A DNA stretch of 57,830 nt from Opitutaceae bacterium (GTDB taxonomy: Bacteria; Verrucomicrobiota; Verrucomicrobiia; Opitutales; Opitutaceae), in assembly GCA_026125215.1 (NCBI GenBank), contig JAHCLN010000004.1:1-57830 (forward strand), written 5' to 3'. A program made the position numbers and the translations under genes. Below, piece by piece: positions 19,305-23,937 of the stretch; the first letter of the stretch is position 1, and each line of letters starts with the position of its first letter. Under the pieces are notes generated by a model that searched no databases, had not been told where the DNA came from, and saw only the letters and a list, made by a program, of their open reading frames with translations.

Positions 19305-19322
19305 TCTAAGACCTAACGGCCT
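19305..19322 (-). repeat. Island-end repeat, left copy (18 bases)
   Basis: The sequence TCTAAGACCTAACGGCCT is the inverted counterpart, with one mismatch in 18, of a stretch at 23195-23212. It lies 33 bases after the miaA stop and marks the probable left limit of the IS110/RHS island. Confidence 0.6.
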
Positions 19323-19553
19323 TCTCTGAGTGGCCCTGTGCAAGCATGATTTTTGGGCTGTTTTCGGATGATTTCCGGATGGGGACGCGAAGGGCCGGGC
19401 GACATTCCGGCGGCCTGTCACCAGGGTGGGAAGAGGAGATTCCGCGATCACACTTCTCTAAGCGGCGGACCGTTCACGGTGGTCCCCTGCATGGTAAAAT
19501 CAGATCCCCGGCCCTCTATCCTGACCCAAGACGCACCTGCGCGGGGCAGGTCG

Positions 19554-20615
19554 TCAGTCCGTAATGAGAGCGGCCGGGGAAAGTGGTTTGGTGGTGAGCG
19601 GCACCTTGGAGTAGTTGCGCTGTTCTGTCAGCATTTTCCAAGCGATCTTGGCCAGGCGGCGGGCGGTGATGGTGATGGCCTCGTTGGCGCCTTTGCCGCG
19701 GGCGCGGTGGCGCTTGTAGAACGTGCCAAGGTAGCCGTCGCAGCCGACGGCCACCCAGGCGGCCTCAATGAAGGCCCATTTGAGCCAGCGGTTGCAGAAC
19801 GGCAGCATGCGGCCGTGGGAGGTCTTGCCGCCGGAGGAGTAGGTGGTGGGCACCAGACCGGCGTAGGCGCACAGCTTGTCGGGGGTCCGGAAACGCGCGA
19901 TCCCGTCGATCTCCAGGGCAATGACCGGGCCAAGCACCTTGCCGACTCCCGGCAGGGTGCGCAGGCGCCGGGCCTCGGCGTTCGCCGCGTTGTCCGCCTC
20001 GATGCGGTCTTCAAGCGCGTGGATGTGGCGCTCGATCAGCTCGTGCAACTCCAGGTCCTCGGTGAGCAGCTGGCGGTCGGGCGCGGGCAGGACCACGCGC
20101 TTCATCCAGGCTTTACCCCGTTGGCTGAAAGGGTCTTTGACCGCGGGGCGTTCGAGGCGGGGATGGCGGTCGAGCACCGTGTGGATGCGGTTGCGCACCA
20201 TGGTGCGCACACGGGCCAGCCAGAGGCGCTGGCGCACGGTGTTCTTCTTCTGCCGCACCGGCTTGTCCGGCACGTGGACGGCGGCGACGAAGTTGCCGCG
20301 CAACAGCGTGGCGAGCGCCCGGGCGTCCACCCGGTCGTTTTTGATCTGCGCGTCGGCGATGATGCGGTTCTTCGCGGGATTGGAGAGCACCACCTGCGCG
20401 ACGCCCGGCGTGGCTTCGAGCAGGTCGTAGAGCGCAGCCCAGTTCCAGCACGCTTCGATCACCACCGCGCTCGGCTCGGCCAGGGCCGCAAAGTAGGCGG
20501 CGAAGGCTTCCGGCGCGTTGTGGTCGATGCGGCGTTCCAGCAGCCGGCGGCCTTGCGCGTCCAGCGTGCAGGCCACCGAGTAGCGTTTGTGATGGTCGAT
20601 TCCGGTATAGTTCAT
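19554..20615 (-). mobile_element. IS110-family transposase gene, apparently intact
   Basis: A 353-residue transposase with the RuvC-like DEDD domain of IS110 in front and the Transposase_20 domain behind. Acidic residues fit the DEDD set: Asp7 in TGIDHHK, Glu54 in VIEACWNW, and Asp93 and Asp96 in KNDRVDARAL. The C-terminal region has TLPGVGKVLGPVIALEI and LCAYAGLVPTTYSSGGKTSH with the conserved Ser. The frame is uninterrupted from ATG to stop. IS110 elements lack terminal inverted repeats and encode a guide RNA beside the gene, so I cannot set the element ends; the flanks 19323-19553 and 20616-20799 are where they would lie. Confidence 0.93.
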
Positions 20616-20799
20616 GGCACCGCCAAGGATACCACCGTCCGACCTTCGGCTCGGCTCCTTTCCTTAGCTGCCTCTCATGTTACCTAACCCCATCGACTGA
20701 GGGCGGTGCCTCACTACGATTTCATGGCTCCACGCGACGTGCTGGACCGTTACAGCGAAAAGCCGAGTCCGGCGGGTCTGGCCGGGTTTGTCGTAAACG

Positions 20800-21028
20800 G
20801 GGTCAGGCCGTAAATTGTAAATTAAGGGTCGGGTTTTGGGTGGGGTCCGTGATCCGATGGCTAGTGGACCGAGTATGGCCGCTTTCAGAAGAGAGGTCTC
20901 GAATAAAATTTCCCAAATATATATCCAAAAAATAGTTTAATAAATACCTGGAGCGCTGAGTCCGTTCCAAGCGATGAACGTTCGCTGGGTTGGATGCCAC
21001 TTTAATTTACAATTTACGGCCTGACCCC
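20800..21028. repeat. 229-base segment with 26-base perfect inverted ends
   Basis: The left end (20800-20825) starts GGGGTCAGGCCGT and the right end (21003-21028) is its exact reverse complement over 26 bases. The interior is clearly AT-richer than the chromosome and holds no convincing gene. The form is that of a miniature non-autonomous element. Confidence 0.75.
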
Positions 21029-21040
21029 ATTGATTGGGCC

Positions 21041-21197
21041 GCCACGGTGCTGCCGAGGGCATCGGGGTGGTGATACTGCCAGCCGCCGTGCGCGGCGTCG
21101 TGCCGCGCAATGACCTCATCGGGCCGCGGCCCCCAGACGGTCCAGTCAATCTGCGCACCGCCGGCATCGAGCCGCAGGAAGCACTGCGCGCCGTCGT
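21041..21197 (-). pseudogene. Orphan RHS core fragment
   Basis: On the minus strand this reads DGAQCFLRLDAGGAQIDWTV and continues through GPRPDEVIARHDAAHGGW to HHPDALGSTVA, matching the RHS gene at 22782-22939 almost word for word. Both ends stop abruptly. It is a displaced second copy of a short piece of RHS core, as left by recombination between toxin-tip cassettes. Confidence 0.8.
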
Positions 21198-21244
21198 GTC
21201 AAAGAACGTCTATCTATCGCCATCCCATCGCCTCGGCCCAGACC

Positions 21245-21265
21245 TAGCACCTAACGGCCGGACCC
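21245..21265 (-). repeat. Island-end repeat, internal copy
   Basis: TAGCACCTAACGGCCGGACCC is a variant of the reverse complement of the repeat at 23189-23212 (GGGGTCAGGCCGTTAGGTG...). It sits between the orphan RHS fragment and the immunity-like gene. Confidence 0.55.
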
Positions 21266-21325
21266 TATAGGATTGCGGACCCCGTCGGATTGCGGCTGTT
21301 TAGGACAGGTATGTTGCGACGTTAA

Positions 21326-21928
21326 TTATTTATGTCGGCCCGTTCGCACTTCGATTTTAGTTCCATCAGGTAGATTTTTGATCTGCTCGAACACGCTATG
21401 GCGAAGTTTAATATTTTTCTCCCAATTAAGAGGATACACGTTATCAAGGGAATACTCACCACCAGCTATAAAAGGCAGTCTAGGACACAATTGCTGACCC
21501 ATTTTCAACGGGGCATGTGTGTGTGTCCACTCCCGCAACAGGGATTCACCGGTGTAGAAATTTGGCTTGCCCAATACGGCAATCAGGAACGCATCAAAGC
21601 TTTTCGCAATTGTAGACCACGTGCCGTCCTCAAGATCAAACATACCATACTCGGTCCCACAGCAGCCAAATTGATTTCCAAATATTTCTTCGGCAAAAAG
21701 AAGCCATTTGCCGGTGCTCTCCGGATACAGTGTTTTCAGTGAAGCGTTTCTACTTTCAAGATTGTCATATTCCGCCGGAGCACCGGGCGCATAAAAGTGC
21801 AATGCGCCAGAAAAGGCCACGCCGGCACCACACGACTCGATAAAAAATTGATGTGCAGAGTCATTGAAGCCTGAATTAGTGCCACGTGGGGGAGCATAGG
21901 TAGGTATAAAATCATGTAGTCTGCGCAT
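21326..21928 (-). CDS. Probable immunity protein, SMI1/KNR4 (SUKH)-like
   Basis: 200 residues, no signal peptide, base composition lower in GC than the chromosome. The stretch GKWLLFAEEIFGNQFGC near residue 73, then YGMFDLEDGTWSTIAKSFDAFL, has the SUKH pattern (Trp/Leu strand, acidic Phe-Gly-Asn/Asp turn, later Phe-x-x-Phe/Leu helix). It starts 7 bases after the RHS-NucB stop in the same direction, the usual place of the gene that neutralises an RHS toxin tip. Family assignment is by pattern only and tentative; immunity is inferred from position. Confidence 0.6.
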   Translation of the reverse strand: MRRLHDFIPTYAPPRGTNSGFNDSAHQFFIESCGAGVAFSGALHFYAPGAPAEYDNLESRNASLKTLYPESTGKWLLFAEEIFGNQFGCCGTEYGMFDLEDGTWSTIAKSFDAFLIAVLGKPNFYTGESLLREWTHTHAPLKMGQQLCPRLPFIAGGEYSLDNVYPLNWEKNIKLRHSVFEQIKNLPDGTKIEVRTGRHK

Positions 21929-21935
21929 GGCTGGA

Positions 21936-23188
21936 TTATTTTTTTGGGGGATTTGGCTTCGGTTGAGGAGGACGCGGCACCACTACTACTTTAGTGCCAT
22001 CAGGCAAAGTTTTGATTTGTTGGCCAACTGAACCTCCCGCTCCGCGATTATCGCTGGGCGAAATCGGACGAACAGACGTTTTCCCATCCGGCTTTATCAC
22101 CGCCGGTGGAAACTCGTCTCGGTCTTTACCCTCTACGGTATCTACGTCCTTGAGGTTCTCCTTCCGCCGTGCTTCTTTGCCACTTCGATCAATCACACCT
22201 GTAGGTTTAACGCCATCAGCAATGGCATCTTCACCGTGCTGTGCAGCCTCTGGATGGTCTATGTAGATAGGCACAGGTGCTTCTTCTCCAGTATTTCCAA
22301 CTGCGGGTGCCTCAGGGTTGGCGGCTTCGGCTGCCTGACGCGCCACATTGGCCACGGCAATGGCAGCGATTGTCGCCTCCATCGCTATTTGCGTTGCGCG
22401 GTAGGCGCGGTGGGCTTGGTAAGCACCCCATCCTAGACGGGCGGCGGTGCCGATGGTCCACACACTGCGGGCGACATGTGCAACTTCACCACTCGGATCG
22501 ACATGATTGATCGGGTTGTTGAAGCAATACCGATACAGGTTCAGGTCGCCCGCATCGAACCGCACGGGGTCGTTCTGCAGGAACCTTCCCAAGGTCGACT
22601 GATACCACCGGGCCTTGTAGTTCGCGAGCACGATGTCCCCGCGCCATTCCTGCCCCGTGAATAACCACAGGTTGCCAATGGCGGTTGCGGTGCGCGCATT
22701 CCCGTTCGCATCCCGAATATCCGGCAGCCCGAAGGGATCGTAGAGATACCGCTCGATCACGCTCCCGGCGGCATTGGTCACGGCCACCGTGCTGCCGAGG
22801 GCATCGGGATGGTGATACTGCCAGCCGCCGTGCGCGGCGTCGTGCCGCGCGATGACCTCGTCGGGCCGCGGCCCCCACACCGTCCAGTCGATCTGCCCGC
22901 CGCCGGCACCGAGCCGCAGGAAGCACTGCGCGCCGTCGTAATAGCGGAACTCGGCCACGCCGTTCTTCGTCACCTTCACGAGCCGCCCCTCGGGGTCGTG
23001 AGCCAGCGTGAGCGTGAGGCCGGACTGCGTGACGGACGTCAGCCGGTTTTCCGCGTCGTAGCCGAGCGTCTGCCCGCCCCAGGTGGTGACATTGCCCCGG
23101 GCGTCGTGGGCGATGGCGCCACCGCTTTGGCCGGTGACGGCCGAGTATTGGTTGAGCGCGTCGGCGGTAAAACCAATGGAAAACCAAT
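21936..23188 (-). pseudogene. RHS-repeat protein, 5'-truncated, with NucA/NucB-like DNase tip
   Basis: Coding similarity runs from about 23188, where RHS sequence (FTADALNQYSAVTGQSGG) abuts a repeat and an in-frame TGA, to the stop at 21936. The first in-frame ATG is at 22979. The RHS core ends with GRFLQNDPVRFDAGDLNLYR and NNPINHVDPSGE. The C-terminal tip, roughly 21975-22277, has the NucA/NucB DNase pattern: HPEAAQHGEDAI, VIDRSGKEARRKENL, the catalytic KDRDEFPPA (residues 285-293 from that ATG) and SPSDNRGAGGSVGQQI with LPDGTKV. The delivery-side N-terminus, signal and most RHS repeats are missing, so it is a remnant or silent tip donor. Confidence 0.82.
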
Positions 23189-23212
23189 GGGGTCAGGCCG
23201 TTAGGTGTTAGA
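23189..23212 (+). repeat. Island-end repeat, right copy
   Basis: Starts GGGGTCAGGCCGTTAGGTG at the exact point where RHS coding similarity stops. Its last 18 bases (23195-23212) are the inverted counterpart of 19305-19322. A short direct duplication (CCAATGG twice, 23174-23190) sits beside it. Confidence 0.6.
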
Positions 23213-23445
23213 TGGCAAGCGGCAAACTTGTCTGACGAGGCGAATTTAAATCTCTGCAAGTGACGTGCGCCTTCTGTCAGGTGGAGAGTGTGACGGACCA
23301 CACCGGGTGCGGGACTTGGATATGATGGGGCGCGGCCGTGGCGGCTGACAGCCGAGCCGCTGCACAATGGCATGATTCCTCTGAGCAGACTGGCGACTGG
23401 CCTCTTGTCAGGGACGGTGCCCTGACCCAGCTTATCAGTCCAGCC

Positions 23446-23937
23446 ATGCCAGTTTATTTTCACGTCCAACGCAGCGGGGTGAGCGGATTCCGGGTGGGCC
23501 GCAGCTATTCCTTCGGATCGGAGCAGAATTTTTTCGCCCGCGATCTGATGGGCGTCGAGGTGATCGTCCCCGTGGCTGGCACGAGCGGACTGCCCGTGGA
23601 CCAATTGCTCTGCGACTACTTTGATCCGACGGGCCTGGGGCACTACAAGCAGATCCGCAGCAAGATCGTCACTCCCGATGAAAAGGGGCTGCTCAAGTCC
23701 GCGCTGTCGGTGCTCAACCATCAGGCGATGGTCCTGCGTGAATTTGTTTTCGAGCAGGTGCGGCAGGAGGCGTTTCCGGACAAGCCCTCGCGCCTGAAAG
23801 GTATCTGGCTGATTCCGCATGAGGAAGCGTTGCTAGAGCAGTGGGGTGCCGGGCTCAGGTCGCGGACGAATTGCGACGCAGGAGGAGCAGGTGCAGCGCG
23901 AGGCAGAGCGGGGCGAGCAAGGTGGGCACGAGGCTGA
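23446..23937 (+). CDS. DUF2441-like protein, C-terminally disrupted
   Basis: From the ATG at 23446 the protein begins MPVYFHVQRSGVSGFRVG and continues with YFDPTGLGHYKQIRS, VLREFVFEQVRQEAFPDKPS and RLKGIWLIPHEEALLEQW, which resembles DUF2441-type proteins. After that point, near 23845, the frame enters sequence antisense to the next gene and the tail is a Gly/Ala/Arg-rich run with no family character, so the native end is probably lost. It lies on the right edge of the accessory island. Function unknown. Confidence 0.55.
   Translation: MPVYFHVQRSGVSGFRVGRSYSFGSEQNFFARDLMGVEVIVPVAGTSGLPVDQLLCDYFDPTGLGHYKQIRSKIVTPDEKGLLKSALSVLNHQAMVLREFVFEQVRQEAFPDKPSRLKGIWLIPHEEALLEQWGAGLRSRTNCDAGGAGAARGRAGRARWARG

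Follow-up and report, generated by a model that had tools for sequence, protein, structure and literature searches.

A probable orphan RHS toxin/immunity module with a NucA/NucB-type DNase tip and a SUKH/Tdi1-like immunity gene at a variable site of an Opitutaceae genome

Background

Toxin/antidote pairs of the RHS, Tox-NucA and Imm-SUKH type are already known and were catalogued in 2012, when Zhang et al. listed Tox-NucA with Imm-SUKH, RHS repeats and Verrucomicrobia in their Tables 2 and 3 (PMC3482391). In the nuclease BlNucB, residues H53, D93, E94 and N117 are each essential (PMC5758888). Orphan CDI modules without translation signals have been described whose toxin still works and whose immunity protein is produced (PMC3150448). 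The immunity protein Tdi1 is a fold-disrupting inhibitor, which splits the fold of its toxin, Ntox15 (PMC10470768).

The window analysed here is a stretch of 57,830 nucleotides from an Opitutaceae bacterium, in which a sequence-only reading had noticed a broken RHS gene and a neighbouring immunity-like gene. The sequence features singled out by that reading proved real and correctly placed, including the motifs KDRDEFPPA and SPSDNRGAGG, which were both found in the frame described below.

Results

On the minus strand, an open frame of 418 codons runs from 23192 to the stop codon at 21938-21936; its product consists of the end of an RHS core, then a linker, and finally a NucA/NucB tip. The core remnant, the C-terminal end of the shell/core (22485..23192, minus strand), was delimited by the open frame and by a match to Rhs_assc_core (TIGR03696, 69 bits, cut-off 32.5) at about 22703-22488, and this last RHS motif ends in DPSGE, with the tip lying beyond it. 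The linker that joins the core to the toxin domain after DPSGE (22278..22484, minus strand) gave no match in the domain search. The first usable in-frame start of the tip-bearing frame is GTG 22979, and the frame is closed upstream by an in-frame TGA (23195-23193) within the repeat AATGGGGTCAGGCCGTTAGG. Both the proposal that the core had been cut at a repeat with an in-frame TGA, which indeed lies inside the GGGGTCAGGCC repeat, and the proposal that the broken core is not exportable in its present state were supported. As in orphan modules, a core fragment is accompanied by intact tip and immunity frames, and the N-terminal part is absent.

The tip (21936..22277, minus strand) was assigned to the NucA/NucB-type DNases by a match to the PDB NucB sequence, an AlphaFold2 model and Foldseek. 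A phmmer search of the PDB gave a full-length match to the solved Bacillus NucB, with an E value of 2.6e-18 over 93 residues, and its identity to NucA/NucB domains encoded on plasmids was 42-56%. The AlphaFold2 model (pLDDT 92) resembled 5omt, 6ejs and 9fj7 with a TM score of about 0.8 by Foldseek, and was superimposed on solved NucB structures with Z scores of 15.4-16.1 and an rmsd of 1.5-1.7 A over 99-101 residues. The DRDE and DNRG motifs are retained together with all four NucB-essential residues H, D, E and N, the expected catalytic positions on the minus strand being the His at 22238-22236, the Asp and Glu of DRDE at 22118-22116 and 22115-22113, and the Asn of SDNRG at 22049-22047 (roles from PMC5758888). 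The tip is without the cysteines seen in many relatives, and its Gly-rich loop carries a one-residue deletion. No relative was found when the tip was used as a query against viral contigs.

The two checks that had been proposed for the tip differed in outcome. The search with the family model PF14040 did give a match, but with 12.6 bits (E 0.2) it stayed below the gathering cut-off of 23.8, which governs detection and does not define the family; the model scores this divergent tip low, and the HMM check alone would therefore leave the NucB identity undecided. Structure prediction, by which the assignment might have been overturned, returned a NucB fold. The NucB pattern read after the last RHS motif is thus borne out by the sequence match, the predicted fold and the essential residues. 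Judged by this fold and these catalytic residues, the tip appears to be a functional, metal-dependent DNase, whose activity we infer from them.

The adjacent gene (21326..21928, minus strand), which begins 7 nt past the toxin stop, encodes a protein of 200 aa whose assignment draws on its relatives and on a predicted model, as the protein itself matched neither a Pfam nor an NCBIfam family. Relatives encoded on plasmids are annotated SMI1/KNR4. The SUKH-1 family PF09346 was matched by 35 of 40 aligned relatives, with a best E value of 1.4e-6, and five relatives scanned singly scored just below the cut-off for it; PF08906 was matched weakly by 14 of the 40. The model (pLDDT 86) matched Tdi1 (8g0k_B) with a Z score of 16.9 over 172 residues, and Tdi1 and Tdi2, the immunity proteins of Ntox15 DNases, with Z scores of 16-17, while its residues 1-135 matched SUKH proteins (3d5p, Z 9.3; 2pag and 2prv, about 8.6; Knr4, about 7). 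From these model matches and the SMI1/KNR4 relatives, the immunity protein is predicted to combine a SUKH domain and a Tdi1-like C-terminal region, in agreement with the SUKH-like character first ascribed to the downstream gene. Because its partner is NucB and not Ntox15, it was filed as Tdi1-like in fold only.

Residues 124-184 of the immunity model also gave weak matches to HNH/His-Me finger structures, namely Cas8-HNH (Z 3.1-3.8), the Gme HNH nicking enzyme (Z 2.8), and colicin E9 and McrA (both Z 2.0). The idea that this C-terminal stretch represents an inactive His-Me finger domain was rejected, as the HNH matches reached only Z 2-4, and is kept as a lead.

Relatives of the immunity protein were searched for in other genomes with a query built from four closer sequences, the first alignment having been too diverse. 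Of the 44 relatives, which come from many phyla, 25 are encoded immediately 3' of a NucB tip, most of them at a distance of about 20 bases or less, and the other 19 are without a NucB neighbour. Relatives also lie directly 3' of NucB-tipped RHS genes on Leptospira plasmids, of a NucA/NucB gene in Photobacterium and of a VENN-type CDI orphan fragment in Rahnella. The predicted NucB fold and its residues, the SUKH-like neighbour and the adjacency in 25 of 44 cases together make the toxin/immunity reading well supported at the level of sequence and model. The polymorphic toxin/immunity pair envisaged by the sequence-only reading is accordingly supported by a conserved pairing in these genomes and in plasmid records, and the question whether the downstream protein has relatives beside other toxins is answered by those that adjoin NucB toxins.

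The tip and the immunity protein have a common C-terminal tail, QIxxLPDGTxVxI, which is stronger than chance. Aligned tail to tail, the tip and its own immunity protein (SVGQQIKTLPDGTKVVV / SVFEQIKNLPDGTKIEV) gave a BLASTP E value of 4e-6, and a profile comparison gave a probability score (Prob) of 94 and an E value of 1.5e-7. The best local alignment took in both tails in 22 of 22 pairs, with a mean score of 44 compared with 27 +- 4.4 for shuffled sequences, and cognate pairs scored higher than randomly paired proteins (p = 0.005). Among 3994 ORFs, a toxin-tail profile ranked immunity proteins above background, as did the reverse search, both with small profiles that were built for this purpose and trained on this very family. 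A search of the PDB with the immunity-tail profile gave no NucB match.

The shared tail may reflect mimicry or convergence. As Tdi1 is known to split the fold of its toxin, and is the closest match of the immunity model, a mechanism of this kind deserves consideration: the C-terminal helix and LPDG tail of the immunity protein would imitate NucB's catalytic helix and final strand, replace that segment and break the fold. All of the tail comparisons above, from the BLASTP and profile matches to the excess of cognate over random pairing and the ranking among 3994 ORFs, are consistent with such copying. In control Tdi1_C proteins without a NucB neighbour, however, a fainter tail, Q-V/I-x-x-L-P-x-G-x-x-I, was found, with scores of 28-33 versus 41 (40 for one at a contig edge, 27 for shuffled sequences). 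This weakens the tail as a trait confined to NucB partners, as much of it may be ancestral. Furthermore, LPDG is a common turn, the tail is an uncertain coil in the predicted immunity monomer, and the solved Tdi1 targets a different nuclease fold. It is improbable, on balance, that NucB-paired SUKH/Tdi1-like proteins use their helix and QIxxLPDGxxIxI tail to inactivate the DNase by self-mimicry, splitting its fold.

The toxin/immunity module lies within an insertion block (19322..23846) between miaA and a membrane-protein/TolC operon, as indicated by alignments with a locus of a sister genome (L091), which break at 19321 and 23847. The block is absent or replaced at the miaA/TolC site in three same-genus genomes, and the site after miaA is a variable insertion site. 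At this same site, the sister genome carries different cargo (G388:C39, L091 3653-4912), which encodes a likely membrane protein of 149 aa and a protein of 246 aa that contains CVYCGDYFQCRDHVIPVSY and looks HNH-like by eye. The G+C content is 52% in the tip, 46% in the immunity gene, 66% in the core and 70-73% in the flanking genes, a contrast in keeping with polymorphic toxins, where a mosaic with a foreign tip is expected.

The repeat at which the RHS core is cut and which holds the in-frame TGA (AATGGGGTCAGGCCGTTAGGTGTTAG, 23181..23213) has a 33-bp match, 91% identical, beside miaA in the sister genome G388, and a degenerate inverted copy of it was found downstream of the immunity gene (21244..21274, 84% complementary to 23181-23211). 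The repeat is related to the ends of a MITE-like element (20796..21031), whose 30-bp inverted ends AACGGGGTCAGGCCGTAAATTGTAAATTAA are 97% complementary and which terminates a second RHS-core scrap. This scrap (21031..21201, minus strand), which has one in-frame TGA, lies 1.7 kb from the first core in the same locus and shares 94% DNA identity with 22783-22939 (88% at the amino acid level); it is the sole near-identical core DNA and points to a former tandem RHS array. The block also contains an IS110-family transposase gene (19554..20615, minus strand; NF033542, 225.7 bits; PF02371/PF01548) and, at its right edge, a truncated DUF2441 gene fragment (23338-23937, plus strand; PF10386, 33 bits). 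The IS110 transposase further showed weak similarity to a TIGR-Tas endonuclease model (28 bits).

Members of a family of short elements bounded by AACGGGGTCAGGCCGTAAATTGTAAATTAA as inverted ends lie in the window (20796-21031) and at C222:4161-4300, C222:6821-7832, C79:22416-22601 and C165:19775-20015, and an 11-mer of this element family occurs 15 times in the genome compared with once for the reversed control. At C222:6821-7832, the ends flank a REP-associated tyrosine transposase gene.

Plain decay, in which both genes would be untranslated leftovers with no present function, is suggested by the truncated core, the stop-bearing scrap, the IS110 and MITE-like elements and the variable site, and also by a promoter scan near the immunity gene, which found nothing above chance (1 found, 1.2 expected). 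Against this, the tip and immunity frames are intact and all catalytic residues are kept, whereas the adjacent scrap and the DUF2441 gene are broken, so that we regard decay of the whole module as rather unlikely, though of appreciable weight.

Three other RHS-core loci were detected in the 91%-complete assembly (C26, C86 and C165), with core identities of at most 41% at the amino acid level. Of the four RHS-core loci, three have a GGGGTCAGGCC site beside them or at a distance of up to about 2 kb (the window contig C159, C165:19775-20015 and C26:10323). The suggestion that GGGGTCAGGCC elements target RHS genes was discarded, since none was present on the contigs of the two RHS loci found in the other same-genus genomes.

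It had also been proposed that the module may be a silent tip donor, maintained as a store of tip sequence for recombination with a full-length RHS gene at another genomic location. Switching of this kind has been proposed for orphan modules (PMC3150448), and the 0.7 kb of core retained 5' of the tip, together with the second core scrap, indicates that DNA suitable for such recombination existed at one time. A full-length RHS gene that shares the core of an orphan module is usual, though not obligatory, nearby or in the same genome; the check for one in this fragmented, 91%-complete assembly, where the missing 9% of the genome limits the search for a donor gene, found none, the best core reaching 41% amino acid identity. 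C26, C86 and C165, the only other RHS loci, are too diverged for homologous core recombination, which makes transfer of the tip onto them unlikely. The proposal is therefore unsupported; judged by core identity, the module is a tip donor for no RHS gene visible in the assembly, and a donor role elsewhere in the genome appears very improbable.

Discussion

The locus is very probably an orphan RHS C-terminal toxin/immunity module that has lost its shell, a single judgement on both what the pair is and its orphan condition; as it does not extend to present use, it overlaps with the lesser probability given to plain decay. The module would derive from an RHS gene that ended in a NucA/NucB DNase and was followed, 7 nt downstream, by its cognate SUKH/Tdi1-like immunity gene. 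Mobile elements would have removed the N-terminal delivery shell, leaving the module stranded at the variable miaA/TolC site. In the complete RHS protein, the tip would presumably have been released into neighbouring cells and have cleaved the DNA there, with the immunity protein binding the tip in the producer's own cytoplasm. The present-day toxin probably lacks both a route out and a normal translation start. By analogy with the orphan module of E. coli EC93, any remaining usefulness most likely resides in the immunity gene, which might protect against kin or neighbours with NucB-tipped RHS proteins.

These results add to the known orphan RHS modules one of Verrucomicrobia type, in which the NucB toxin and the immunity gene are apparently intact, and connect the immunity proteins of NucB with the Tdi1 fold, for which a fold-splitting mechanism has been solved with another nuclease. 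If tail mimicry were true, it would provide a simple, testable rule for toxin recognition by this NucB-paired immunity subfamily.

Among described systems, the RHS/Tox-NucA/Imm-SUKH type of Zhang et al. (PMC3482391) has the same tip family, immunity superfamily, repeat type and order of core, tip and immunity gene, and differs in that the RHS gene of the window is without its N-terminal part. The orphan cdiA-CT/cdiI and rhs-CT/rhsI modules (PMC3150448) likewise consist of a core fragment, tip and immunity gene with no normal start and with transposon debris, whereas the module described here is not downstream of a complete system in the assembly and is known from sequence. Tdi1 and Tdi2 (8G0K, 8FZZ; PMC10470768) and Atu4351 (6ITW) are the best matches of the immunity model, covering nearly all of it with Z scores of 14-17, but their toxin is Ntox15 rather than NucB, the sequence identity is 12%, and the solved Bacteroides Tdi chains stop near immunity-model residue 184, short of the LPDG tail. 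Bacillus NucB (5OMT; PMC5758888) is a small, secreted, stand-alone enzyme, whereas the tip is fused to an RHS core and has none of the cysteines common in the NucA/NucB family; the two nonetheless share the same predicted fold (Z 16, rmsd 1.6 A) and the same essential H, D, E and N residues.
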